Shown: positions 1 to 15,673 of the stretch, one piece after another
How positions within the stretch are numbered: position 1 is the first letter of the stretch
Layout of the letters: the number at the start of each line of letters is the position of its first letter
Assembly (NCBI GenBank): GCA_028709305.1
Contig: JAQVXE010000013.1
Span: forward strand, 1-36,261
Source: Bacillota bacterium
GTDB taxonomy: Bacteria > Bacillota > DTU025
DNA length: 36,261 nucleotides
Direction: 5' to 3'
Notes under the pieces: model-generated
What the model was told of the DNA's origin: nothing
Databases searched by the model: none
Seen by the model: only the letters and a program-made list of their open reading frames with translations
Program-made: the position numbers and the translations under genes

Positions 1-500
1 AGCCCCAACGGGTCCCAATCAGAAGCGGCTGAGGCCCAGAAGCCCCCTGCTTCCCACGGGTCTTCCTCAACGGACTCTTCTTCCCCCACCGGATGCGTCT
101 GCGGCAAGACTATCTCCATTCCCACTCCATCATGGTATGGGAACTCGCACGGCGAGATTGATATGCCATCCACCTGTTCGCGAACCCATTCGTCCACGCC
201 CAGGTTCATCCTCATCGTCGGCGGAGCATCCTTGAATTTCGCGCTCGTCTTCGCCATCCAAGCCGGCGCAGCGAGCCTGTCAGCAAGGTAGAGGTCCTCC
301 ATTGGATCGTAAGGCGCGATGAATGGCGCAAGAAGCGCGACCAGAACGTAGACGATCACAATACCAAGGCCTACCATGCCCTGGGGCTTCCGTCTGTACT
401 GCTCCCAGAAAGTAAGCGGCTTTGGAGCAGCTGCGGTTGCTGCCTTGACGACGGCGGCTCTCTCTTCACTCTTCGATCTTAGCTTAGTCTGCTGACTCAC
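1..500 (-). CDS. ABC transporter permease, OppC/DppC type (3' part outside window)
   Basis: This is the N-terminal 166 codons of an inner-membrane permease of a peptide/oligosaccharide-type ABC importer; the gene continues past the left edge. The start is GTG at 498-500, which overlaps the TGA of the upstream B permease (GTGA), so translation is probably coupled. A basic N-terminus (about residues 1-40) is followed by one membrane segment (about 43-64) ending in the family sequence APFIAPYDP. Normally the GTDxxGRD motif follows within a few dozen residues. Here about 100 acidic, polar residues follow the membrane segment without reaching that motif, so an extra extracytoplasmic insertion is present. 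The family call rests on the first membrane segment and on its position after an OppB-type gene; the catalytic-loop region is not visible. Confidence 0.85.
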   Translation of the reverse strand, partial: MSQQTKLRSKSEERAAVVKAATAAAPKPLTFWEQYRRKPQGMVGLGIVIVYVLVALLAPFIAPYDPMEDLYLADRLAAPAWMAKTSAKFKDAPPTMRMNLGVDEWVREQVDGISISPCEFPYHDGVGMEIVLPQTHPVGEEESVEEDPWEAGGFWASAASDWDPLG

Positions 501-1480
501 TTCGCACCACCTGCCCCAACGCGGATCCTCGGGTCAACAAGACCATACGCAACGTCCGCCAGTAAGTTACATATTACAACGGCCAGAGCTATGAGATAGA
601 AAGCGCCTTGAGCCGCAGGATAGTCCATCTGAAGTGTGGCATCAAGGAGGTACCTTCCAACCCCGTGCCACGAAAATATACTTTCAGTCATGACGGCCCC
701 CGACACCATCCCTGGCAATGACATGAAGATCAAGGTCACTATTGGCGGGAGGACGCTGCGCAACGCATGTTTGTAGAGGACATCTCTCTCTGACATTCCC
801 TTTGCCCGCGCCGTGATAATGTAGTCCTGCCCCAAGGCCTCTATCATCGTGTTTCTAGCATACAATGCCCACGAACCAAAGCCAACGATCATGTTGCTGG
901 TAACGGGAAGCACAAGATGCCATAGTTTGTCCACGAACTGAGGCCACGCTCCAATCGGCGGGGGTGCGCTCATTGTGCCATGTATAGGCAGTATTGGCCA
1001 GTAGTAGCCAAACAGGAGAAGCATGAGCAGCTGGATGTAGAACCCGGGCACCGCATGGGAAAAGAGGCCCGCAGGAATGACTACCCTGTCTCTAAAAGAG
1101 CCTGGCGTCGCCGCGGCTTTGACTCCCAGAGTCATTCCCACAGTTGATGTCAGTACAAACGTGGTAAGGAAAAGCTTGATCGTATTTGGAAGCCTTTCCT
1201 TAAGTTCAGACCAGACATGCCGTCTTGTCGAAAAAGAATAGCCTAAATCAAACTTGAGCAAGTTCTTCATATAAGTGAGATACTGTTTCCATGGGGGTTG
1301 ATCCAGGCCGAACTGCCTCTTTAACTCAGCCTTCGCTTCCGGCGTGAAATTGGGATCTATAATCATCTTCGTCGGATCTCCCGGCATCACACGGAATAGG
1401 ATGAAATTGAGGGTGAGTATGACGTAGAGGACTATCACGGCATATACGAGTCGCCTGATAACATACGAACGAAAACCCAA
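497..1480 (-). CDS. ABC transporter permease, OppB/DppB type
   Basis: 327-residue inner-membrane permease, the usual length for the family. It opens with a membrane helix and the AMPGDP-type motif (here VMPGDP, about residues 31-36), then has a FGLDQPPWKQY segment. The coupling loop that contacts the ATPase lies near residues 215-250 (DYIITARAKGMSERDV). It ends in the usual DPRIR motif. The start is TTG at 1478-1480, chosen because GAGGTGAG lies about 6 bases upstream and no ATG fits. It follows the tandem permuted binding proteins and overlaps the next permease by 4 bases. With 1-500 it should form the B/C heterodimer of the second transporter. The matching ATPases are not in view; either they lie to the left or the D/F pair at 5862-7854 is shared. 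Confidence 0.95.
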   Translation of the reverse strand: MGFRSYVIRRLVYAVIVLYVILTLNFILFRVMPGDPTKMIIDPNFTPEAKAELKRQFGLDQPPWKQYLTYMKNLLKFDLGYSFSTRRHVWSELKERLPNTIKLFLTTFVLTSTVGMTLGVKAAATPGSFRDRVVIPAGLFSHAVPGFYIQLLMLLLFGYYWPILPIHGTMSAPPPIGAWPQFVDKLWHLVLPVTSNMIVGFGSWALYARNTMIEALGQDYIITARAKGMSERDVLYKHALRSVLPPIVTLIFMSLPGMVSGAVMTESIFSWHGVGRYLLDATLQMDYPAAQGAFYLIALAVVICNLLADVAYGLVDPRIRVGAGGAK

Positions 1481-1512
1481 ATCCGTCTCACCTCATTCTG
1501 CCTCATCACTGG

Positions 1513-1550
1513 ACCCGCCGCCCCGGCCCCCGTGGCCCGGGGCGGCGGGT
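1513..1550 (-). promoter_or_regulatory. Intercistronic GC-rich stem-loop after binding-protein gene
   Basis: A perfect 14-bp inverted repeat (1513-1526 with 1537-1550, loop of 10) lies between the end of the binding-protein gene (1569) and the start of the B permease (1480). No T-run follows on the minus strand. It is therefore more likely a transcript-stabilising or partial-termination element that raises binding protein over permease than a full terminator. This function is inferred. Confidence 0.7.
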
Positions 1551-1568
1551 AACCAGCTCACTTTGGCA

Positions 1569-3275
1569 CTACTTGTTCAAACGCCAGTAGTTCGGGTTCT
1601 TAACGAGCCTTACATACTCGCCAGGCACGTAATCCTTCAGAATGAAGGGGCCAGTTCCAACGAGCTTGGAGTAACCCTTAATCTTCGGGTGGGCTTCCTT
1701 CCAAGGCTCGAAGCCCTTCCAGTCCTTAACATCCTTCCAGATATGCTTGGGCAGGAAGGCTAGGCCTGCATTGTAGATGTGCCAGTAGCTGACGTTAGCA
1801 AAGTAGACCTTGACAGTGTACCTATCGATCAGCTCAGCTTTGACAATGTCCTGCGTAGCAGGGAGATACCTCGGCACCTTGTTCTCCTTGAGGTAGTTAA
1901 TGGTGAACTCCACATCCTCAGCGGTGAACGGCATGCCATCAGACCACTTGATGCCCTTCTCGAGATACCAGGTCACAGTGGTGCCCTTCACGCCGGGCTC
2001 AGGCTCCCATACGCCGACATCCCACTTGCGAGCCATCCATGGCATATCGTCGAGCGTCTCAGGATGCATTGCCATGAGGCCGTCGTACAACCTGGAGATC
2101 ACTTCCTGCTCGTAAGCGCTTGATGCGACACATGGGTTGAGGTTCTTCGGCTCCTCCTGGAGCGTCCACCTAATGGTGCCGCCCTCAATGGCATTGCCTC
2201 GGCGGTCAACACGGCGCATGTTCAGCGTGGTCCACTGGTTGTTGTAACTGGCTGCACCGAAGCCCATCATCGGAACGTATCCGGTGACAAGGTCCTTGCG
2301 GAACGCGTCAATGTATGGCCTCGAGTAAAGCGGCACATACGGCATCTCCCTGGCAAGGATAAGCTGGCAGGCGTCTGAAGCCGCCTTGGCTTCCTTCAGG
2401 TCTGCAGCGTAGTTCAGCCGCTCAGACTGCTTGTCGTACTCAGGATTCCGCATGCCTGGGTTATTGTAGCCTGCTTCAACATCCTGTGACGAATGGAAGA
2501 AGGAATACAGGAAGTCCGGATTCCTGCTCAGACCCCAGGCCAGGACATACATGTCAAACTCGTGAATGTCGATCTTGTCGAGCATGACTGGGAAGTCCAT
2601 CGGCTCAGGTACCACAGGAAGACCAACCTTCTGACACGAATCAGCAATCATCTTGCCAAGCTCGGCAGAGGTCGCAGCAACTTCGTATGTGGGTGTGAAG
2701 ATCTTCATCTCGGCGAGCGGCTTGCCCGTCTTAGGATCAATCCTCACGTTGGTCGCAGGATCCAGTTTGTATCCAGCCTTGTCAAGAACCTCAGCGGCCT
2801 TGGCATGGTTGAACGGATAGACAGGGACATCGGCCTTATAGAAGGGCGATACCTGCGGCACAAAGCTCGTCATAGGCAGCATGTAGCCCTTGAAGAGTGT
2901 GCGGATGATGTTGTCACGGTCCACACAGTGTGCAATAGCCTGACGAATTGGCTGGTTCGACAGCGGCTCTTCCCTCATGTTGAAGCAAAGGTAGAACATG
3001 TGGAAACCAAGGGTCATCGTCATGTCAGAGTTAGGCATGGCCTTAGCCCTATCGATATCATCGGGCTGGGTGAGGCCAGACCACACAACACTTTCACCAC
3101 GCTCAAACGCGATTCTTCTGGCTTGCTGGTCCTTTATGATCGGCATGATAATCTCGTCGACGTGCGGACCAGTTGTCTCGAACGCCATCTTCGCGGCGCT
3201 GGGTGCGCCGGCGATGCCGAGAGCAAGCACGAGCGCCAACACTAAGGCAATCGGCAAGCGAACTTTTTTCGGCAT
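1569..3275 (-). CDS. Circularly permuted family-5 solute-binding protein (copy 1)
   Basis: 568-residue secreted binding protein of the SBP_bac_5 (DppA/OppA) family, but with its two halves in reversed order. Residues 1-28 are a Sec signal peptide without a lipobox cysteine. Residues about 36-350 match the usual second half: GPHVDEIIMPII, then LCFNMREEPL, RQAIAHCVDRDNI, the AAEVLDKAGY repeat-like helix and MPYVPLYSRPYIDAF near the canonical C-terminus. A linker (about 351-364) then leads into the usual first half at residue 365: GGTIRW, EEPKNLNP, RLYDGL, GIKWSDGMPFTAEDV, FLPKHIW, GTGPFILKDY, ending at KNPNYW. Normally NPNYW is followed by GP.VDEI, so the new termini cut between these. The start is the ATG at 3273-3275 with GAGGAGGT 10-17 bases upstream; a longer 587-residue reading lacks support. 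Substrate is unknown (peptide, oligosaccharide or other). Confidence 0.93.
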   Translation of the reverse strand: MPKKVRLPIALVLALVLALGIAGAPSAAKMAFETTGPHVDEIIMPIIKDQQARRIAFERGESVVWSGLTQPDDIDRAKAMPNSDMTMTLGFHMFYLCFNMREEPLSNQPIRQAIAHCVDRDNIIRTLFKGYMLPMTSFVPQVSPFYKADVPVYPFNHAKAAEVLDKAGYKLDPATNVRIDPKTGKPLAEMKIFTPTYEVAATSAELGKMIADSCQKVGLPVVPEPMDFPVMLDKIDIHEFDMYVLAWGLSRNPDFLYSFFHSSQDVEAGYNNPGMRNPEYDKQSERLNYAADLKEAKAASDACQLILAREMPYVPLYSRPYIDAFRKDLVTGYVPMMGFGAASYNNQWTTLNMRRVDRRGNAIEGGTIRWTLQEEPKNLNPCVASSAYEQEVISRLYDGLMAMHPETLDDMPWMARKWDVGVWEPEPGVKGTTVTWYLEKGIKWSDGMPFTAEDVEFTINYLKENKVPRYLPATQDIVKAELIDRYTVKVYFANVSYWHIYNAGLAFLPKHIWKDVKDWKGFEPWKEAHPKIKGYSKLVGTGPFILKDYVPGEYVRLVKNPNYWRLNK

Positions 3276-3430
3276 TAAGTACGTACCTCCTCGAATTTTG
3301 ATTTGATTGAATGGGTGATCAGTTCTCGTCACGTTGCGACATATGAGTCATGTGAGTTGAATCGACGTCCCAACAATCCCTGTAACTTAGAGAACACAAC
3401 TTTACAGCAGTAACTCTTTAGCCCATCACC

Positions 3431-3474
3431 ATGCCCAGAAGGTTGATTCGTCACCGCATACCGGAATTCCTTCT
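3431..3474 (-). promoter_or_regulatory. Conserved leader element with Spo0A-box-like core (copy upstream of binding protein 1)
   Basis: This 44-bp segment, 156-199 bases upstream of the start codon at 3275, matches 5568-5611 at 34 of 44 positions without gaps, whereas the flanks have diverged. Its core on the minus strand is TGACGAA (3447-3453), which fits the Spo0A consensus TGNCGAA. The ends AGAAGG and CCTTCT are complementary. The rest of the 370-bp spacer (3276-3645) shows no convincing gene. Confidence 0.5.
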
Positions 3475-3645
3475 ACCTTCGGAGTCTGCTTCGGCCAAAA
3501 CTTGAGGTCACCAGCAGCAAACTGCGTTCTCCGTATTAACTACCCACTATTCTAGACGCAAAGCGAAAGTCCTTCAAACTTCAGCTAGCATTAGCATTTG
3601 TCAGCTCAGTCCGAACTTGATGCCCGCCAGACAGAGGAAAGGAAG

Positions 3646-3675
3646 TGCCGCCCAAGGCTAAGGCCCCAGGCGGCA
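3646..3675 (-). terminator. Stem-loop after binding-protein copy 2
   Basis: TGCCGCC (3646-3652) pairs with GGCGGCA (3669-3675), and wobble pairs extend the stem inward. It lies 20 bases past the stop codon at 3696, and on the minus strand is followed by a pyrimidine tract (CTTCCTTTCC). It could be a terminator or partial terminator between the two binding-protein genes. Confidence 0.5.
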
Positions 3676-3695
3676 TCCTAAAGAACGTCAGCGCC

Positions 3696-5399
3696 TTACG
3701 GGTTAAGACGCCAGTAGTTCGGGTTCTTGACGAGCCTTACGTACTCGCCAGGCACGTACTCCTTGAGAATGTATGGGCCATGGCCAACGAGCTTGGTAAA
3801 GCCCTTGATCCTCGGGTGAGCTTCCCTCCAAGGCTCGAACGCCTTCCAGTCCGTAACATCCTGCCAGATGTGCTTAGGCAGGAAGCTGGCGACACGGTAC
3901 AGATTCCAGTAACTGATCTCCCTGTAGTAGAGCTTCACGGTGTACCTGTCGATCAGCTCAACCTTCACCACCTCGTCAGTGGTGGGCTTGTATCTCGGCA
4001 CCTGGTGCTCCTTGAGGTAGTCCATGGTGAACTTAATATCCTCGGCTGTGAACGGCATGCCGTCGGACCACTTTATGCCCTTGTTAATATACCAGGTCAC
4101 AGTAGTGGCCTTCTTGCCGGGCTCAGGCTCCCATGTGCCAACATCCCACTTATAGGCCATCCAAGGCATATCCTCGAGGGTATCAGGGTGCATCTGCTGC
4201 AGGCCGTCGTAAAGCCTGGAGAGAACTTCCCACTCGTACGCGCTTGACGCAACGCATGGGTTCAGGTTCTTCGGCTCCTCCTGCAAGCTCCACCTGATGG
4301 TGCCGCCTTCGATGGGATTGCCACGCCTATCAACGCGGCGGATGTTCAGTACCGTCCACGCGTTGTTGTAGCTAGCCGCGCCGTAGCCCTTCATCGGAAC
4401 ATATCCGGTAACCAGGTCAGTCCTGAACGCATCAATGAAAGGCCTTGAATAGAGCGGCACGTACGGCATCTCTTTGGCGAGGATCAACTGAGCCGCATCT
4501 GACGCCTTCTGAGCAGCGTCAAAGTCAGGAGCCCAGTTCAGAGCCTCCAGGTGCTTATCCAACTCAGAGTTACGAATTCCAGGTCTGTTGTAGCCAGCCT
4601 CGACGTCCTGCGAACTATGGAAGAAGCTGTACAGGCTCGTCGGGTTTCTGCTGAGGTTCCAAGCCAGGCAGTACATGTCGAACTCACCAATGTCGAGTTT
4701 GTCGAGCATGACCGGAAAGTCCATCGGCTCAGGCACTACCGGAAGACCAACCTTCTGACACGAGTCAGCAATCATCTTGCCGAGTTCGGCGGAGGTCGGA
4801 GCAACTTCGTACGTGGGTGTGAAGATCTTCATCTCGCGCAAAGGCTTGCCTGTCTTGGGATCGATCCTCACCTTGGTTACGGGATCTAGCGTGTAGCCAG
4901 CCTTGTCGAGAACCTCGGCGGCCTTTGCATGGCTGAACGGATAGACAGGAACATCAGCCTTGTAGAAAGGCGACACCTGAGGAATGAAACTCGTCATGGG
5001 GAGCATGTATCCCTTGAAGAGCGTACGGATGATGTTGTCACGATCGGTGCAGTGTGCAACGGCCTGACGAAGTGGTTGGTTCGCCAGCGGCTCTTCCCTC
5101 ATATTGAAGCAAAGATAGAACATGTGGAACCCAAGTGTCATTGTGAGTTCAGTGTTGCTAAGAACCTTTGCCCTGTCAATATCCTCGGGCCTCGTAAGGC
5201 CAGACCAAACAACACTTTCACCGCGCTCAAACGCAATCCTTCGTGCCTCGGCCTCCTTGATGATCGGCATAATGACCTCGTCAACATGGGGGCCCCACGG
5301 CTCGAAGGCCACCTTGGCAGAACCGGACGCGCCGGCAAGACCAAGGGCAAGCGCGAATGCCAACAATAATACAATCGGCAAGCGTACCTTTTTCGGCAT
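3696..5399 (-). CDS. Circularly permuted family-5 solute-binding protein (copy 2)
   Basis: 567-residue extracytoplasmic binding protein, close paralogue of the product of 1569-3275 and permuted at the same place. Signal peptide about residues 1-28, no lipobox. The mature chain opens with GPHVDEVIMPII and the usual second half (LCFNMREEPL, RQAVAHCTDRDNI, MPYVPLYSRPFIDAF). After a linker (RRVDRRGNPIEGG) it continues with the usual first half (EEPKNLNP, RLYDGL, GIKWSDGMPFTAED, FLPKHIW, GPYILKEY) and stops two or three residues after NPNYW. The start is ATG 5397-5399 with AGGAGGT upstream. It is separated from the upstream ATPase gene (stop at 5862) by 460 bases containing the leader element, so it probably has its own promoter and starts the second transporter operon. 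Residues that differ from copy 1 in an otherwise near-identical pair hint at altered ligand preference; this is inference. Confidence 0.93.
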   Translation of the reverse strand: MPKKVRLPIVLLLAFALALGLAGASGSAKVAFEPWGPHVDEVIMPIIKEAEARRIAFERGESVVWSGLTRPEDIDRAKVLSNTELTMTLGFHMFYLCFNMREEPLANQPLRQAVAHCTDRDNIIRTLFKGYMLPMTSFIPQVSPFYKADVPVYPFSHAKAAEVLDKAGYTLDPVTKVRIDPKTGKPLREMKIFTPTYEVAPTSAELGKMIADSCQKVGLPVVPEPMDFPVMLDKLDIGEFDMYCLAWNLSRNPTSLYSFFHSSQDVEAGYNRPGIRNSELDKHLEALNWAPDFDAAQKASDAAQLILAKEMPYVPLYSRPFIDAFRTDLVTGYVPMKGYGAASYNNAWTVLNIRRVDRRGNPIEGGTIRWSLQEEPKNLNPCVASSAYEWEVLSRLYDGLQQMHPDTLEDMPWMAYKWDVGTWEPEPGKKATTVTWYINKGIKWSDGMPFTAEDIKFTMDYLKEHQVPRYKPTTDEVVKVELIDRYTVKLYYREISYWNLYRVASFLPKHIWQDVTDWKAFEPWREAHPRIKGFTKLVGHGPYILKEYVPGEYVRLVKNPNYWRLNP

Positions 5400-5567
5400 T
5401 GAGCATGTACCTCCTAAAAATGTTTGATCGTGCTAATCAGTCCTTAACTCTCACCACACTGCTATGGGACAGTAAAGGGAATCAAATCGGCCGCCAATCC
5501 CTCCTCTCCTACACATCACAACAATTGCAAAAACGCACTATCGTCAGCCTTTTCAGCAGCTAAGAAT

Positions 5568-5861: not shown

Positions 5862-6878
5862 TCACCTCGCCACAAGAATGTGGCAGGCGACGAGGTGCCC
5901 AGGGGACACCTCTGCCAAATCAGGATAGTCGCGGTCACTGCAGATTGACCTCGCTGCAGGACAACGCGGATGGAACCTGCATATTGGCGGAGGATCGATG
6001 GGCTTGCTCACTCCGCCTCGGATATTCGGAACATCTCGCCGTATGGCCGGATCCGGAAGGGGCACGGCTGAGATTAGAGCCTGCGTATAGGGGTGGAGTG
6101 GGTTCTTGATGACCTCCTCAGCTCCAGCCATTTCCACTATCTTCCCCAAGTACATCACTGCAATCCTGTCGCACAGGTACCTGGCAACCGCAAGATCATG
6201 TGTGATGTACAGATAGCTCATTCCGAAATCCTCTTGCAGCTCTGCGAGGAGCTTCATGACACCCGTCCGAATCGATACGTCCAGCATGGAAGTGGGCTCG
6301 TCAGCAACTATGAACTTGGGGTTCACGACAAGGGCCCGGGCAATAGCCACCCGCTGCCGCTGGCCGCCCGAAAGCTCGTGAGGAAATCTGAAGAAGAACA
6401 TATCGGGCGGGGTTATGCCAACGCGGGACAGCATGTAGGCTACTCGCTCCTCCCTATTCACCAATGTGCCGATGTGGTTCACATTGAGCGGTTCCGAGAT
6501 TATGTCGAATACCGTCATCCTCGGGTCCAGCGACTCATATGGATCTTGGAATATCATCTGCACCGTCTGTCGGAATTCGCGCATTCCTTGGCCGCCAATA
6601 GCCGCAACATCCTCATTGTCTATGAGTATGCACCCGGCAGTCGGATCGGTCAGCTTGACCAGCATTCTCCCGGTAGTCGTCTTGCCACACCCTGATTCGC
6701 CCACCAGGCCAAGCACCTCTCCTCGGGCGATCTCAAAGCTCACATCATCGACTGCATGGAGCCAAGCCCTCTCTTTTCTGAAGAATCCCCGCCCCACCAA
6801 AAAGTGTTTCGTCAATCCCCTGACTACCACAATCGGTTCACACGCCTTATCAGGCTGTAGCAACGCCAATTCGGTCAC
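5862..6878 (-). CDS. ABC transporter ATPase, OppF/DppF type
   Basis: Cytoplasmic nucleotide-binding subunit of about 339 residues that powers the importer as a heterodimer with the D subunit. Walker A GESGCGKT is at about residues 60-67, the Q-loop at FQDPYESLDP (about 110-119), the signature LSGGQRQR at 169-176 and Walker B FIVADE at 189-194. The C-terminal oligopeptide-transporter extension is complete, with the cysteine motif CRFHPRCPAARSIC and a final VACH, which in some family members binds a metal or iron-sulfur cluster. I chose GTG at 6876-6878, which overlaps the end of the D gene by 29 bases. A TTG nine bases further on has a better-spaced GGGGGG upstream and is a fair alternative. 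No strong terminator follows. Confidence 0.95.
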   Translation of the reverse strand: MTELALLQPDKACEPIVVVRGLTKHFLVGRGFFRKERAWLHAVDDVSFEIARGEVLGLVGESGCGKTTTGRMLVKLTDPTAGCILIDNEDVAAIGGQGMREFRQTVQMIFQDPYESLDPRMTVFDIISEPLNVNHIGTLVNREERVAYMLSRVGITPPDMFFFRFPHELSGGQRQRVAIARALVVNPKFIVADEPTSMLDVSIRTGVMKLLAELQEDFGMSYLYITHDLAVARYLCDRIAVMYLGKIVEMAGAEEVIKNPLHPYTQALISAVPLPDPAIRRDVPNIRGGVSKPIDPPPICRFHPRCPAARSICSDRDYPDLAEVSPGHLVACHILVAR

Positions 6879-7854
6879 CCCCCGACGATGGAGCTGGAAA
6901 CGGATTGTAACAGGCAACGGAATGATTGGGTCCTACATACCGCGCCGGTGGCTCCACCGTGCCGCATTCGTCAGTCGCCCAATCACACCTCGGATGAAAT
7001 CGGCACCCTTCAGGCGGGAATACCAAGTTAGGGGGTTCCCCTGGAATCGTTGCCAGGTCGCGCTTCTCACCCAGAATGCTTGGGTAAGCGTTCATCAGCC
7101 CGTACGTGTATGGATGCCTTGGGCGCTTGAATATGTCATCTGCAGGGCCGATTTCCACCAGCTTCCCGGCGTACATCACACCCACTACGTCGCTTACTTC
7201 AGCTATTACAGAAATGTCATGGGAAATGTATATCATGCTCATGTCCGTCTTGCGCCTGATCTCCTCCATCTCACGGAGGATCTTGTCCTGCACTATGACA
7301 TCCAACGCAGTCGTAGGCTCATCCGCTATGATCAAGCTCGGACTACAAGCCAGGGCCATAGCTATCACGGCGCGCTGCTTCATCCCGCCACTGTATTCAT
7401 GGGGATAGTGATCCATTCTCTCCTCTGGAATGCCCACAGTGCAAAACAACTCAGCAACACGCTCTCGGGCATCCCGTTCCGATGCAGCTGGTTCGTGTTC
7501 GAGTATGACCTCTGTTATCTGGCTTCCTACTGTATATACAGGGTTCAGCGCGTTCATGGCTGCCTGAAATATCATGGCAACCTCTTTCCACCTGAGTTTT
7601 CGGAAGTCTTCCTCGCGCATTGAATACACATCCTGTCCGCCAAGGAAGACCCGGCCACTCTTGATCTCTGAGTTATAGGGCAACAACCTCATTATCGACA
7701 TGGCTATCGAAGTCTTTCCGCATCCCGATTCGCCTACGAGGCCTAACGACTGCCCGCGTGCGAGCGAGAAGGTTACGTCATCCACTGCCTTGACATGTCC
7801 TGCCGTAGTACGATAGTGCATTGTAAAATTCTCAACCTTCAGGAGAGCATCCAT
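6850..7854 (-). CDS. ABC transporter ATPase, OppD/DppD type
   Basis: 334-residue nucleotide-binding subunit. Walker A GESGCGKT at residues 41-48, Q-loop FQAAMNALNP near 96-105 (the D-subunit form), signature YSGGMKQR at 154-161 and Walker B LIIADE at 174-179. The C-terminal domain carries GCRFHPRCDWATDEC and a final SVACY, the four-cysteine motif of the OppD/OppF extension. The start ATG (7852-7854) has GAGGTGAG upstream. It lies 7 bases after the C permease gene and overlaps the F gene, as expected for an operon in the order binding protein-B-C-D-F. Confidence 0.96.
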   Translation of the reverse strand: MDALLKVENFTMHYRTTAGHVKAVDDVTFSLARGQSLGLVGESGCGKTSIAMSIMRLLPYNSEIKSGRVFLGGQDVYSMREEDFRKLRWKEVAMIFQAAMNALNPVYTVGSQITEVILEHEPAASERDARERVAELFCTVGIPEERMDHYPHEYSGGMKQRAVIAMALACSPSLIIADEPTTALDVIVQDKILREMEEIRRKTDMSMIYISHDISVIAEVSDVVGVMYAGKLVEIGPADDIFKRPRHPYTYGLMNAYPSILGEKRDLATIPGEPPNLVFPPEGCRFHPRCDWATDECGTVEPPARYVGPNHSVACYNPFPAPSSGGDRIGVATA

Positions 7855-7861
7855 TCTCCGC

Positions 7862-8854
7862 TCACCTCTTTCTGAGCCGGGGATTCACAACTTCATCGAG
7901 ACCTCTTCCCACCATGTAGAATGCGGCGCAAAAGAGTGTGATTGCTAATCCCGATGGAAGCCATAACCACCAGTACCTTCCATAGTCGAATAGATATCCT
8001 GCAGTCTCGGCTGTATGTATCATCATCCCCCAGCTCATGTCTATATTCAGAACTCCAAAGAATGACAAAGTAGCTTCGCTCAAGATTGCTGCCGTAACGT
8101 TGAACATCATATATAGGAAGGAAAGCGGGAGAACGTTGGGTATGATGTGCGAACGTATGATGTGCAAGTCATCTCCGCCTGCAACCTTTGCCGCATCTAT
8201 GTAAGGCCTAACCTTGACCTGCAATGCCTGGGCTTTAAGAATTATTGTGATGCCGCCAAATGCCTCCAGAAACCCCAAGATAATCGCGAATGAGAACATG
8301 TCGAGCCTGACTAGGGAGCCTACAACTACCAGAAGAGGCACAAACGGAAAGAGCATCACTATGTCTGCAAGCCTCATGAAGAAAGCATCCGTAAATCCAC
8401 CGTAGTAGGCGGCCATTGCGCCGATAAATGTCCCAACAACTACGCTGATCATGGCGGAGAGCACGCCGAGCAGAAACTCGCGGCCAGTGCTGAACATCAA
8501 CTGCGCCAATATGTCTCGCCCAATGGGGTCGGTTCCTAGCAAGTGCCCTCGGCAGGGCGCGGCAGGATGCATCATAGTAGGATCAAAACCTACAACCGGG
8601 TGGTATACGTTCGGGTCCCATACGTTTCTGAACATTAGGGGCCACATCATTCCAAAAACCCCGAAGCAAACAATGACAACTAGGCCGGCGATACCAATGC
8701 GACTTTCCCTGAAGATAGCCCAATGCTGGGCAAGGGAGCGCATGTTCAGTCTCCATCTGATTCTCCATAACGGCTCGCTTATGACTCGTGGATGCACCAC
8801 TGGCTCCATGCCTGATCCGGGGCGTATGTTTGGGCTCTTTGCAGATTCAGTCAT
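7862..8854 (-). CDS. ABC transporter permease, OppC/DppC type
   Basis: 330-residue inner-membrane permease. A cytoplasmic N-terminal region of about 55 residues precedes the first membrane segment (GIAGLVVIVCFGVFG). The family motif LLGTDPIGRDILAQ lies near residue 105. The coupling loop (YIDAAKVAGGDDLHIIRSHIIPNVLP) is at about 220-245, and the end DEVVNPRLR is typical. It is slightly longer than average because of the extended N-terminus and loop. The start ATG (8852-8854) follows AGGTAA. It is packed 10 bases after the B permease and 7 bases before the D ATPase, so it belongs to the complete first transporter. Confidence 0.95.
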   Translation of the reverse strand: MTESAKSPNIRPGSGMEPVVHPRVISEPLWRIRWRLNMRSLAQHWAIFRESRIGIAGLVVIVCFGVFGMMWPLMFRNVWDPNVYHPVVGFDPTMMHPAAPCRGHLLGTDPIGRDILAQLMFSTGREFLLGVLSAMISVVVGTFIGAMAAYYGGFTDAFFMRLADIVMLFPFVPLLVVVGSLVRLDMFSFAIILGFLEAFGGITIILKAQALQVKVRPYIDAAKVAGGDDLHIIRSHIIPNVLPLSFLYMMFNVTAAILSEATLSFFGVLNIDMSWGMMIHTAETAGYLFDYGRYWWLWLPSGLAITLFCAAFYMVGRGLDEVVNPRLRKR

Positions 8855-8864
8855 CGCAAGTTAC

Positions 8865-10043
8865 CTACCCTTCAGCCACAGGTTCTCCGCCATAGGAGAT
8901 CCTTGGATCCAAGGCGGCATAGAGCATGTCGGCAACGAAATGGGCTATTAAGAGGAAGATACCCGTAAACACCAATGCACCCGTGGCAAGGGGATAGTCG
9001 TTTGCCAAAGCCGAACGGAAAAGAACCTGACCCAAACCGGGCCAGGAAAACATGGTCTCTGTAACCAATCCCCCGCTCATCGAAGCTGCCAGAGAAAGCA
9101 CAAGGCTGGTCACCGTAGGAAGGAGGGCATTTCGGGCAGCGTATCTATCACGGACCACAGCATCTGGCAATCCTTTGGCCCGAGCAGCCATTACGTAGTC
9201 CTCTTCGACAGTCTCGAGCATCGAGTCGCGCATCAGCAACATAGTGCCGGCAAAGTTGATAAGGGTGAGGGTGACAACAGGAAGCACCATGTGGCGTACG
9301 ATATCCCACATGTACACCAGCATTCCCGCACTTGCGGCAACTCCGAGCCCTGCAGCGAAGACTCCTGCGGACAGCGCCCAAGCCAAACCGATCTTCCTTC
9401 CCGTCTTGCGCTGGCCTCGGCCCAAACTCCAGAGGATCGCGAAAACGGCTATCGAGATCACAGCAATCCCAAACACCATGTACCCAAAGACTGTATTGGA
9501 AGGCCACGGAGCATACACCCATAAACTAGGTTCTATGAACTGATTGAGCGGCAGCCATTTGAGGGTGTAGGCAAACAGCCAGATCAAGATCAAGGAAAGG
9601 AGCGGATAGAAGGCGGTCCAAAAAGCTATGCCCACGACAGTGGCTGCATGGTCCACAGTAGCCCCGCGCCGCCAGGCAATGACCCTACCCAACATGAAAC
9701 CTACATAGAATGATAGAGCATTCGCAGTAATGAACAAGACGAGAGTCCGTGGCAGGCGTTCAAGGAGTATGTCCCAAACAGGCCTTGGATACTGCGAAAA
9801 TGAAACTCCCAGGTTTCCTGTAAAGAAATTTCTTATGTACGAAAGAAACTGCACAATTGGGGGCTGATCCAAACCCAGCTGCTTCTTCAGTTCCTCCCGC
9901 GCCGCCTGTGGTATCCTCGGGTTCTGAAGGTATATCATGGAGATATCGCCCGGCATAGCCTGCAGCAGGAAGTAGACTAGCGCTATGTAGATAAACAAGG
10001 TTATGACCAGCTGACCGACGCGGCCAAGAACGTATCTGCGCAT
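8865..10043 (-). CDS. ABC transporter permease, OppB/DppB type, with extra membrane hairpin
   Basis: About 392 residues, some 60 longer than usual for the family. The N-terminus has the first helix and AMPGDI motif, then KQLGLDQPP. The extra length lies in the middle (about residues 190-250), where two additional hydrophobic segments flank a basic loop (GRGQRKTGRK). After them the normal family sequence resumes at HMVLPVVTL and the coupling loop DYVMAARAKGLPDAVV, ending in DPRISYGG. The ATG at 10041-10043 (AAGG 8-9 bases upstream) is preferred; an in-frame GTG nine bases earlier is possible. It probably pairs with the product of 7862-8854. Confidence 0.93.
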   Translation of the reverse strand: MRRYVLGRVGQLVITLFIYIALVYFLLQAMPGDISMIYLQNPRIPQAAREELKKQLGLDQPPIVQFLSYIRNFFTGNLGVSFSQYPRPVWDILLERLPRTLVLFITANALSFYVGFMLGRVIAWRRGATVDHAATVVGIAFWTAFYPLLSLILIWLFAYTLKWLPLNQFIEPSLWVYAPWPSNTVFGYMVFGIAVISIAVFAILWSLGRGQRKTGRKIGLAWALSAGVFAAGLGVAASAGMLVYMWDIVRHMVLPVVTLTLINFAGTMLLMRDSMLETVEEDYVMAARAKGLPDAVVRDRYAARNALLPTVTSLVLSLAASMSGGLVTETMFSWPGLGQVLFRSALANDYPLATGALVFTGIFLLIAHFVADMLYAALDPRISYGGEPVAEG

Positions 10044-10082
10044 CTTGATCACCCTTGCTTTCCGGTATTCTTCGAGAGATGT

Positions 10083-10123
10083 GGCGCGAGCCGAAATCCC
10101 TGAGAAAGACGCCGGCCCGCGCC
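10083..10123 (-). promoter_or_regulatory. Intercistronic stem-loop after binding-protein gene
   Basis: GGCGCGAGCCG (10083-10093) and CGGCCCGCGCC (10113-10123) form an 11-bp stem with one mismatch, between the binding protein (stop at 10158) and the B permease. The placement is the same as at 1513-1550 and 26312-26327, and it probably sets the ratio of binding protein to permease. Confidence 0.5.
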
Positions 10124-10157
10124 GCGCATGGCCAGGAATACTACGTTATTCCCTGCA

Positions 10158-12032
10158 CTAGTTCTTCAGCTTGACTGTACTGGTCATGCCTCCGCTGTAC
10201 TGGATTCCGCTAAGCGTCTTGGTGTACGGAAAAGCAAGGCGATCGCTACGATATGCTTCAATAAGAGGTGTGTCGAATATTACAATATAAGGTAACTCGT
10301 CAGCAAGGATCTCCTGGAGCCTAAACGCCATCCTGCGAGCCGTCTCCATGTCGGCTTCTCGCAAGAACTCCTCAACCATCTTGTCGAAATCAGGATTGCT
10401 GTACATTTCGTAATTGAATCCGCCGGCCGGACACTGGCTGCTGTGGAAGAACCAGTACATGTGGTCAGGGTAGAGGCCCAAGCTCCAACCAAGCATGAAA
10501 CAGTCGAAGTCGCGCTCATCTGTCTTCGAAATAACCACGTTGAACTCGGTGGGAACTACTTCAACCGGGATCCCAACCTCCTGCATCCATGTGGCAATAT
10601 TCAGTCCGAAAGTGTAGCGAAGCGGGTCGTAGCCTGCAGTCATTACATTGAACTCAAAGGACGGCATCTTCTTGCCGTTGGGCATGATCAATCCCCTGCC
10701 GCGCCTGAGTACCCTGTCTTTGGCGAGGTCAACCTGAGGTTCAACCTCCCACGAGAACCCAGCGCTCTTCAGCAGCCTAACAGCCTCAGTAATCTTCTGG
10801 CTCCGCGTGAAGCCTTTGCCCCACATCGGAACGTTGGGGTTGAACCAATAGGCATTGCCCGGAGGGACCACAGAATACTGAGGAAATGCGACCCCCTGTA
10901 ACACTCTCTCACAGATGTATTCTCTATCAATGAGAACAGATACAGCCTGCCTGAACTCTTTTATGTTGAAGGGATACTTGGTCAGGTTGAACGCCATATA
11001 CCTAAATCCGTTAACGTTGTTCTCTACTACCTCAACACTGGCCGCCTTCTTCAGCTGATCCTGAAATCCACGCTGCAGGCCAAGGGAGTTGAGAATGAAA
11101 TCCACTTCTCCGGAGATCAGGGACAGAACGGCCGCGTTCTGGTTCTGCAGTATGCGGAACATCAGCCTGTTGGCATACGGCCCCTCGGTCACGGCAAGCT
11201 TGATATCGCCGATTGGATTCCCGAGGATATATCTGAATCCCGTCTTCTTGTTCTCTGTCACGAACGCGCCATTCTTGTAGAAGGTATTAGTGTCGCCCGT
11301 CATGGCGTAATAAGGGTTGCGGGTGTGAGTGACAAAAGCGCCCTTCTCCCACCTCTCCATCATCCACGGTCCGGCCACCGGCTCACCCTTGGGATCATGG
11401 GCCAACAGCTCCTTGATGGGATCTGCAGCCTTAAGAGCCTTGCTTACCACAGGATCCCAATAGGCCTTGGGTAGAATGAGAGCCTGCAACATCCCGTACT
11501 GCCACTGAGCCAAACCCGGGAGCTCCGTCAGGTAGAACTTGACGCTATAGTCGCCAGCCTTCTCCACCTTCGCTAGGATCTCAGGGTCAATATTGCCAGG
11601 CCAGTTCCCACCCAGCTTGTTCGGGTCCAAAGCTAGAGGCGCCATGTAGCTGAAGACAACGTCGTCAGCAGTCATGGGTTTCCCGTCGCTCCACCGAAGC
11701 TCCTTACGTATGTTCACAACTGAAGTGTAGTAGGTCTTATTGTCCATTTTCTCTTCTACTAGACGAGATGGCATACCCGAAGCAGCCTGCGGGCAGAACA
11801 CATAGTCAGGAGCTGCGTTTCCGTACAGACCTATGTAGCTCTGCTGGTAACCGACAAATGAATTCCAGACCGTTGCGTCAGGGCCGAGAGCAGCCCACAC
11901 ATTTACTGTGGTCGGGTCTTCGAAGATAGCCATTTCGTAGACACCGCCCGCAGCCGCCTGTCCGATGATGCCCATGCAGAATACAACCGCCACAAACAGC
12001 AGGACCGTCATACTGTAACGCACGACCTTCAT
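10158..12032 (-). CDS. Family-5 solute-binding protein, normal domain order
   Basis: 624-residue secreted binding protein for the first transporter. The signal peptide is about residues 1-28 (ends GQAAA) and has a cysteine in its core but no lipobox. The domain order is canonical: IFEDPTTVNVW near the N-terminus, LRWSDGKPMTADDVVFSY at about 110-130, GPWMMERW and NPYYA, then NAAVLSLISGEVDFI, FNLTKYPFNIKEFRQAVSVLIDREYI, and LPYIVIFDTPLIEAYRS near the C-terminus. It is longer than the permuted paralogues because of an insert after NPYYA (about residues 245-285) and other loops. The start ATG has AAGGAGG 11 bases upstream. The order contrasts directly with 1569-3275 and 3696-5399. Substrate cannot be read from sequence. 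Confidence 0.95.
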   Translation of the reverse strand: MKVVRYSMTVLLFVAVVFCMGIIGQAAAGGVYEMAIFEDPTTVNVWAALGPDATVWNSFVGYQQSYIGLYGNAAPDYVFCPQAASGMPSRLVEEKMDNKTYYTSVVNIRKELRWSDGKPMTADDVVFSYMAPLALDPNKLGGNWPGNIDPEILAKVEKAGDYSVKFYLTELPGLAQWQYGMLQALILPKAYWDPVVSKALKAADPIKELLAHDPKGEPVAGPWMMERWEKGAFVTHTRNPYYAMTGDTNTFYKNGAFVTENKKTGFRYILGNPIGDIKLAVTEGPYANRLMFRILQNQNAAVLSLISGEVDFILNSLGLQRGFQDQLKKAASVEVVENNVNGFRYMAFNLTKYPFNIKEFRQAVSVLIDREYICERVLQGVAFPQYSVVPPGNAYWFNPNVPMWGKGFTRSQKITEAVRLLKSAGFSWEVEPQVDLAKDRVLRRGRGLIMPNGKKMPSFEFNVMTAGYDPLRYTFGLNIATWMQEVGIPVEVVPTEFNVVISKTDERDFDCFMLGWSLGLYPDHMYWFFHSSQCPAGGFNYEMYSNPDFDKMVEEFLREADMETARRMAFRLQEILADELPYIVIFDTPLIEAYRSDRLAFPYTKTLSGIQYSGGMTSTVKLKN

Positions 12033-14494: not shown

Positions 14495-15673
14495 CTAGTC
14501 CGAAATCCTCCATGCAGGCACCATGTGAGGACAATCTACGAAAGAGTGGGGCAGCATTCCAATTCCGGCAAGTAGGCGCACTCCGCATTCCTCTAGCCGT
14601 AACAGGGCCTCGAGAAACTCCGCCTCCATCCCCCAAGCTCCATGAAGGCATTCACAAGCAGCCTGGGCTTCAATGACCTCCTCAAATAACTTGATGAAAC
14701 ACATCGCGCTTCGAGTTCTCTCAGCCTCAACCCTCGCCTCAAACGCCTCTCGGGAGGTTCCGATATCACGCGGAACACGACTTCCGTCAAGGGCAAACCC
14801 AATCGCGTATGTCCCGCCTGGTGCCGACGTAGACTGCTCTGCCGTTGCCACAAGGGATGCAGCATGTATCAGCTCCGCCAGTCCCCGCCTGGGTTTGGCA
14901 GCATAGTCGATCATGGCCCCAATCACATTGGGATCGCGCCGAATCCACTCGCTGCAAAGAACCTCGACATCGGAGTTGGCGACAGTCCCTATCAACGACC
15001 TCAAAGAGTCGAATTCGTCCATACGGAGTGCCCGAAGAATCCCCTCTCTACCGTGTTGGCCAAGCCTCAAAGCTAGCTCCATCTCCACCTTATGAGCCTC
15101 ACTCATGTCTCCTCTGACAGATGCTATCTGGGCACGTCTCAAACACCTCAACGCGCCAACCACAGCTTCGCCCTCCGCCCTGGCAAGCCTCGCCTTGGCA
15201 AAGTCCGAAGAGGTAGCTGAAGGCTCAGGGCGTGCCCTCCTTAGTACGTTCGCAAAGACAGGCAGAGGGACTTCGATCCCGAGCGTTGCCCACTGCACAT
15301 GATCCTCAATGCCAATATCGCACTTGTATGAAAACCCAAGTCTCACGCCAGTCTCTCCCTTTGCAGAAATCGACCCCCTTACGGCAGAATCACATCCCCA
15401 CATGGTCAACGAGTAGACCCAAGATCGTCCTAGATCGTCGCTGAACCTTGATTCATTCACCTCAATCCATGCAGAAAGGAAAGTGGGATCGCAAGCCATA
15501 GAGGCAGTGAAGAATTCCTCGACGCCTATGGTTCCAACGGAGAGAACGTCATCTTCGCCATGAATCGCCGCACTAGAAACCTGTGTCTCCTTGCCGAGCG
15601 TTGCAGAGGCAGATGCCATCAGAATTGCCACAATCAGCAAGAGCGGGCGCACAACACTTCGCCCCTTTTCCAC
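14495..15673 (-). CDS. Secreted protein with TolC-like (outer-membrane efflux protein) layout, function unknown
   Basis: 392 residues, not assigned to a family with certainty. Residues 1-27 are a signal peptide. Two similar halves can be seen. Each has an acidic segment containing a DPxxxxA pattern (CDPTFLSAWIEV near 60; RDPNVIGAMIDYA near 245), a short strand region (LGIEVPLPVF near 135; YAIGFALDG near 288) and then a long Ala/Glu/Arg-rich helix (about 155-210 and 305-345). This two-fold strand-helix pattern, with 'PLPVF' before the helix, is what TolC/OEP proteins show, although it is shorter than most. The GTG start (15671-15673) has GGGGGG 9 bases upstream. If the assignment is right, the organism may have an outer membrane; a coiled-coil surface protein is the alternative. 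Confidence 0.6.
   Translation of the reverse strand: MEKGRSVVRPLLLIVAILMASASATLGKETQVSSAAIHGEDDVLSVGTIGVEEFFTASMACDPTFLSAWIEVNESRFSDDLGRSWVYSLTMWGCDSAVRGSISAKGETGVRLGFSYKCDIGIEDHVQWATLGIEVPLPVFANVLRRARPEPSATSSDFAKARLARAEGEAVVGALRCLRRAQIASVRGDMSEAHKVEMELALRLGQHGREGILRALRMDEFDSLRSLIGTVANSDVEVLCSEWIRRDPNVIGAMIDYAAKPRRGLAELIHAASLVATAEQSTSAPGGTYAIGFALDGSRVPRDIGTSREAFEARVEAERTRSAMCFIKLFEEVIEAQAACECLHGAWGMEAEFLEALLRLEECGVRLLAGIGMLPHSFVDCPHMVPAWRISD

Follow-up and report, generated by a model that had tools for sequence, protein, structure and literature searches.

Two tandem genes of a Bacillota bacterium very probably encode naturally circularly permuted extracytoplasmic binding proteins of family 5 (DppA/OppA/AppA-type, cluster C), and sequence alignments show the old termini to be fused by a short linker, the chain to be opened at the equivalent of AppA 209–211, and an apparent signal peptide to stand before the new N-terminus. 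The window analyzed here is a 36,261-nucleotide stretch of one contig of that genome. Proteins of the type found in the window, which we call class I, form one clade, have been found in ten or more family-level groups within the Bacillota, and are mostly followed by their own DppBCDF genes. Our prediction is that the permuted proteins are, most likely, working binding proteins of dedicated importers.

Segment order in the two window genes

Both genes are on the minus strand (Table 1), where the preliminary description had placed them, and only the start of gene 1 has been moved. We prefer ATG 3275 to GTG 3332, since AGGAGG (3291–3286) stands 10 nt ahead of this ATG and the protein then opens with MPKKVRLPI, like that of gene 2. 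The two proteins are 80% identical to each other, and their signal peptides are evident by eye and conserved in relatives. When the reading frames were checked, no stop or frame break was found inside either gene, and the uninterrupted frames together with the low dN/dS values given below rule out a misread frame or stop. The earlier view that these are real genes, each with a signal peptide and a strong ribosome-binding site (AGGAGG) before the permuted start, is retained. Elsewhere in the window, a 392-residue reading frame at 14495–15673 (−) has no Pfam match.

Table 1. Features of the window, with the evidence or remark for each
Feature	Position	Strand	Evidence or remark
Gene 2, permuted binding protein, 567 aa	3699..5399	−	Stop at 3696–3698; Pfam, PDB alignment, doubling test
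Gene 2 signal peptide, about residues 1–28	5316..5399	−	Sequence inspection; no lipobox seen
Gene 2 ribosome-binding site AGGAGG	5410..5415	−	Sequence
Gene 2 old C-terminal part (C1+C2, about residues 36–352), now first	4344..5294	−	Profile/alignment
Gene 2 linker from old C-terminus to old N-terminus, about residues 353–364	4308..4343	−	Sequence comparison
Gene 2 old N-terminal part (GGTIRW...NPNYW), now last	3699..4307	−	Profile/alignment
Gene 1, permuted binding protein, 568 aa	1572..3275	−	Stop at 1569–1571; ATG start at 3275
Gene 1 signal peptide, about residues 1–29	3189..3275	−	Sequence inspection
Gene 1 ribosome-binding site AGGAGG	3286..3291	−	Sequence
Gene 1 old C-terminal part, now first	2220..3170	−	Profile
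Gene 1 linker	2184..2219	−	Sequence comparison
Gene 1 old N-terminal part, now last	1572..2183	−	Profile
DppB-type permease after the permuted genes, conserved class-I neighbor	497..1480	−	Pfam, locus comparison
Start of partner DppC-type permease and beginning of its extracytoplasmic insert	3..500	−	Cut by contig end
DppB, DppC, DppD, and DppF genes of neighboring normal operon	5862..10052	−	Pfam, locus comparison
Normal-order family-5 binding protein of neighboring importer operon	10158..12032	−	Pfam, segment HMMs

Family 5 is a very large family of binding proteins that is usually detected by order-dependent profiles. The SBP_bac_5 profile (PF00496) matched the two window proteins with E values of 1.2e-71 and 7.3e-66 (242 and 223 bits, cut-off 32.4), and in both of them profile positions 146–365 matched first and positions 4–142 second, within one frame. 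The whole profile is not collinear with either protein and becomes collinear only after circular permutation, and because of this non-collinear match we regard them as a permuted variant of SBP_bac_5 and not as ordinary members. In sequence they are closest to oligopeptide-type members (AppA, Opp4A) and far below any equivalog cut-off, none of the NCBIfam cut-offs being reached by either protein. A phmmer search against the PDB aligned residues 36–318 of gene 2 with residues 211–488 of Bacillus subtilis AppA (1xoc) and residues 438–564 with AppA residues 86–209, which places the new ends between AppA residues 209 and 211. The new termini are thus neighbors in the normal chain, as the preliminary description had it, and the old termini are joined by a short linker. 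Measured from the profile boundary of the old C-terminal segment to that of the old N-terminal one, the junction is 18–26 residues long, and in gene 2 the stretch RRVDRRGNPIE stands between LNI and GGTIRW, which fits the linker of about 14 residues proposed earlier.

Family-5 proteins were cut into three segments, N, C1, and C2, by iterated segment HMMs, and 88 proteins were sorted by segment order, giving 29 in the normal order N-C1-C2, 38 in the window order C1-C2-N (class I), and 21 in the order C2-N-C1. We then used a doubling test, in which proteins were aligned by Smith-Waterman with normal proteins doubled head to tail (gain threshold 20); profile-HMM doubling was uninformative, since HMMER splits domains at the linker, and Smith-Waterman with a control was used instead. 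Class-I proteins gained score with the doubled normal protein in every one of 1102 comparisons, with a median gain of 137, and doubling raised the score in 584 of 609 comparisons for the C2-N-C1 type and in none of 406 for the normal-order controls. With each of the 29 normal-order proteins, gene 2 gave a single near full-length alignment only when the normal protein was doubled. Such a pattern is the classical mark of a circular permutation, and the negative control is clean. The binding protein of the neighboring operon in the window has the normal segment order, and Pfam and the segment HMMs agree on this point with the preliminary description.

Conservation, selection, and predicted fold

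Other genomes from the same genus, family, and order also encode full-length class-I proteins, and a contig scan of named Bacillota MAGs gave 19 class-I loci (UBA10085, UBA5389, UBA1393, DTU025, DTU087, the AS23 set, and others). The protein has intact order in 17 of the 19; of the other two, L075 is damaged in its N-terminal part, and L077, at the end of a contig, is a fragment. Using a profile of the C2-N junction to search 399 Bacillota genomes, we counted by hand at least 25 that carry class I, from 10 family groups; scoring covered the few best candidates of each genome, which makes these counts lower bounds. Class-I matches reached at least 390 bits over the whole profile, with a wide score gap from partial matches. 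In 299 Pseudomonadota genomes the same profile gave no intact junction-spanning match among the matches listed. Two class-I paralogues are divergent, being about 50% identical and without an adjacent DppB: L043/L074 (G003:C97), where a partial class-I match at 9965–10585 lies in another frame just before the intact copy, and L044/L075 (G003:C74), whose N-terminal part is disrupted.

The window-type proteins are under purifying selection, with dN/dS values of 0.07–0.10 between class-I orthologues, 0.15 between the two window paralogues, and 0.08–0.16 for the short linker. Class I is a heritable, conserved, and selected gene form. If two normal tandem genes had been wrongly joined during assembly or binning, the halves would only appear swapped, and the window's genome, fragmented into 192 contigs and with a tandem pair of similar copies, is a setting prone to misassembly. 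However, class-I relatives in MAGs from different projects, at 50–92% identity, have the same order, an apparent signal peptide and a ribosome-binding site stand ahead of the permuted start in each window gene, the window type is under purifying selection, and the other permuted type is present in single-contig genomes. Because the order recurs in independently assembled MAGs, we consider an assembly error refuted for practical purposes and its probability negligible. It is also very improbable that the permuted proteins are rearranged copies in decay or without function, as the damage in L044/L075 and the broken frame of the permuted L125 might suggest, since the window type has intact frames with dN/dS near 0.1, is conserved across ten family groups, and keeps a conserved importer operon. 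With segment order, the doubling test, purifying selection, and independent genomes in agreement, the claim that the tandem proteins are circularly permuted family-5 binding proteins stands.

An AlphaFold2 model of class I made with 20 class-I sequences had a pLDDT of 82.3 and a pTM of 0.74; a control with the normal-order window protein, made from a 3-sequence alignment, had a pLDDT of 32. The 50 best PDB neighbors of the class-I model are nearly all named as family-5-type binding proteins (NikA, DppA, AppA, and others), with about 280–350 columns aligned and TM values of 0.40–0.48, a partial alignment that is expected because the order-dependent aligner uses only part of a permuted chain. 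We infer a closed two-lobed fold from homology and model confidence. In PDB searches by sequence and by model, no solved chain matched with the permuted order.

A second cut site and the number of origins

The C2-N-C1 proteins are cut open in the segment equivalent to AppA 358–375, so that they begin with C2 behind a signal peptide or a lipobox-like sequence and end at motifs such as AGYEWDSEGRLYYPE. We split them into class II (e.g., L052–L056, L104, L105, L108, and L126) and class III (L003 and L114–L123, with the assignment of L124 uncertain). The class III protein L003 (G000:C73, about 1501–3055 (−)) is in the window's own genome, where three of the six recognized family-5 proteins are permuted; its stop codon overlaps, as ATGA, with an ATG that is the apparent start of the following gene. 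Several class III proteins sit in single-contig genomes. The class-II-like permuted protein L125 (G212:C27) has a shortened frame and an internal TGA and is possibly a decaying copy. Two further sets considered as permutants were rejected: the distant matches L079–L083 (Mucispirillum, Pseudoalteromonas) have the normal order, as do the long proteins L057–L059 by segment HMMs. L057 and L058 (G004:C18 and G007:C147) combine normal order with about 200 additional N-terminal residues that resemble S-layer-homology repeats.

In a tree of canonically re-ordered segments, the 38 class-I sequences form one clade with full support. A single origin of all C2-N-C1 proteins is rejected by the AU test (p=0.0046), and neither class II alone (p=0.61) nor class I plus class II (p=0.39) is rejected, in a tree that is limited by long branches and with AU groups partly named after the tree was seen. 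Because a common origin of all second-site proteins is rejected, the safe statement from these sequences is that permutation arose at least twice, with two cut sites. Three permutation events are likely. For the window type, the probable route is a tandem duplication in frame, after which the outer parts were lost.

Importer partners, precedents, and significance

In most class-I loci, DppB, DppC, DppD, and DppF genes directly follow the permuted gene, although some contigs end early; L074 and L075 are exceptions to this layout, without an adjacent DppB. The window contig ends inside DppC, and the DppD and DppF genes of the class-I operon are seen in relatives only. Upstream of the permuted genes in the window, the normal-order protein has a full operon of its own. 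Of the 17 class II and III loci examined, 16 have DppB and DppC genes next to the permuted gene, and L146 is the exception.

By a crude hydrophobicity rule, TM1 and the permease core are separated by 189–261 residues in the DppC beside class I (15/15 measurable cases) and by 12–22 residues in the other DppC proteins (18/18). This insert of roughly 190–260 residues (for example in L067:12752–14347, and beginning in the truncated DppC of the window) has no Pfam match and no significant PDB relative by sequence. The P2 region of MalF is likewise a large extracytoplasmic region on a permease subunit of a binding-protein-dependent importer and, according to a reference quoted in PMC3150292, has been reported to contact MalE. 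Unlike it, the window-type insert follows TM1 of a DppC-type subunit, and any contact with the binding protein is conjectural. By this analogy, the DppC insert of about 200 residues might perhaps help the permuted protein to dock. The association of the insert with class I belongs to one lineage, in which a single historical event may account for it. That at least three permutations at two preferred sites occurred in Bacillota and that the window type co-evolved with a new DppC extracytoplasmic domain giving a different docking mode is, taken together, a tentative proposal that we regard as rather doubtful.

The window proteins share with SBP_bac_5/cluster C members (DppA, OppA, AppA, NikA) a significant family match in both segments, an apparent signal peptide, and a DppBCDF-type operon, and differ in their circularly permuted chain order. 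In the open-access literature searched, we found no description of a permuted family-5 binding protein, and the only precedent found is in cluster B. Tp0684 (MglB-2) of Treponema pallidum is a natural circularly permuted glucose-binding protein that binds its ligand, with such permutation also reported in Gram-positive relatives (PMC4990184). It is likewise a natural circular permutation of an ABC-importer binding protein, but it is a sugar-binding protein of cluster B (type I), a different family, and its permuted part is poorly conserved in sequence, whereas both segments of the window proteins are clearly homologous to the normal family. We rejected the window proteins as Tp0684-type cluster B members, since Pfam gives only SBP_bac_5 and the PDB matches are of cluster-C type. 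The authors of that study raised membrane anchoring as a possible reason for the permutation (PMC4990184), an idea that is not simply transferable to the window type because no lipobox is evident. The window's genome encodes an Omp85 protein, in keeping with a periplasm and with binding proteins that have no lipobox.

Permutation can favor segment swapping. With termini located elsewhere and a partner DppC that has an unusual extracytoplasmic region, the permuted proteins might dimerize by swapping halves, or adopt some other arrangement, and serve in a changed role such as that of a sensor, and not act as ordinary importer binding proteins. We consider this unlikely, because the linkers permit intramolecular joining, the operon has the makeup of an importer, the single-chain model is confident, and Tp0684, although permuted, has kept the ligand binding of a binding protein (PMC4990184). 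As ordinary binding proteins of their importers, the permuted chains would fold into the usual two-lobed form, capture solute in the periplasm, and deliver it to their DppBCDF importer.

Evolution has repeatedly moved the chain ends in a large and well-studied family of transporter proteins, apparently without published description. Beyond the first observation, there is a second permutation site, a protein of that type in the window's own genome, and a modified partner permease. For annotation, the warning is that a pair of half-matches may belong to a single intact permuted protein. The design of biosensors from peptide-binding proteins could take the natural cut sites as a guide. Natural permutants of repeated origin show where the family-5 fold tolerates new ends, and they let one ask, as a natural experiment, whether docking to the importer depends on where the N-terminus lies.
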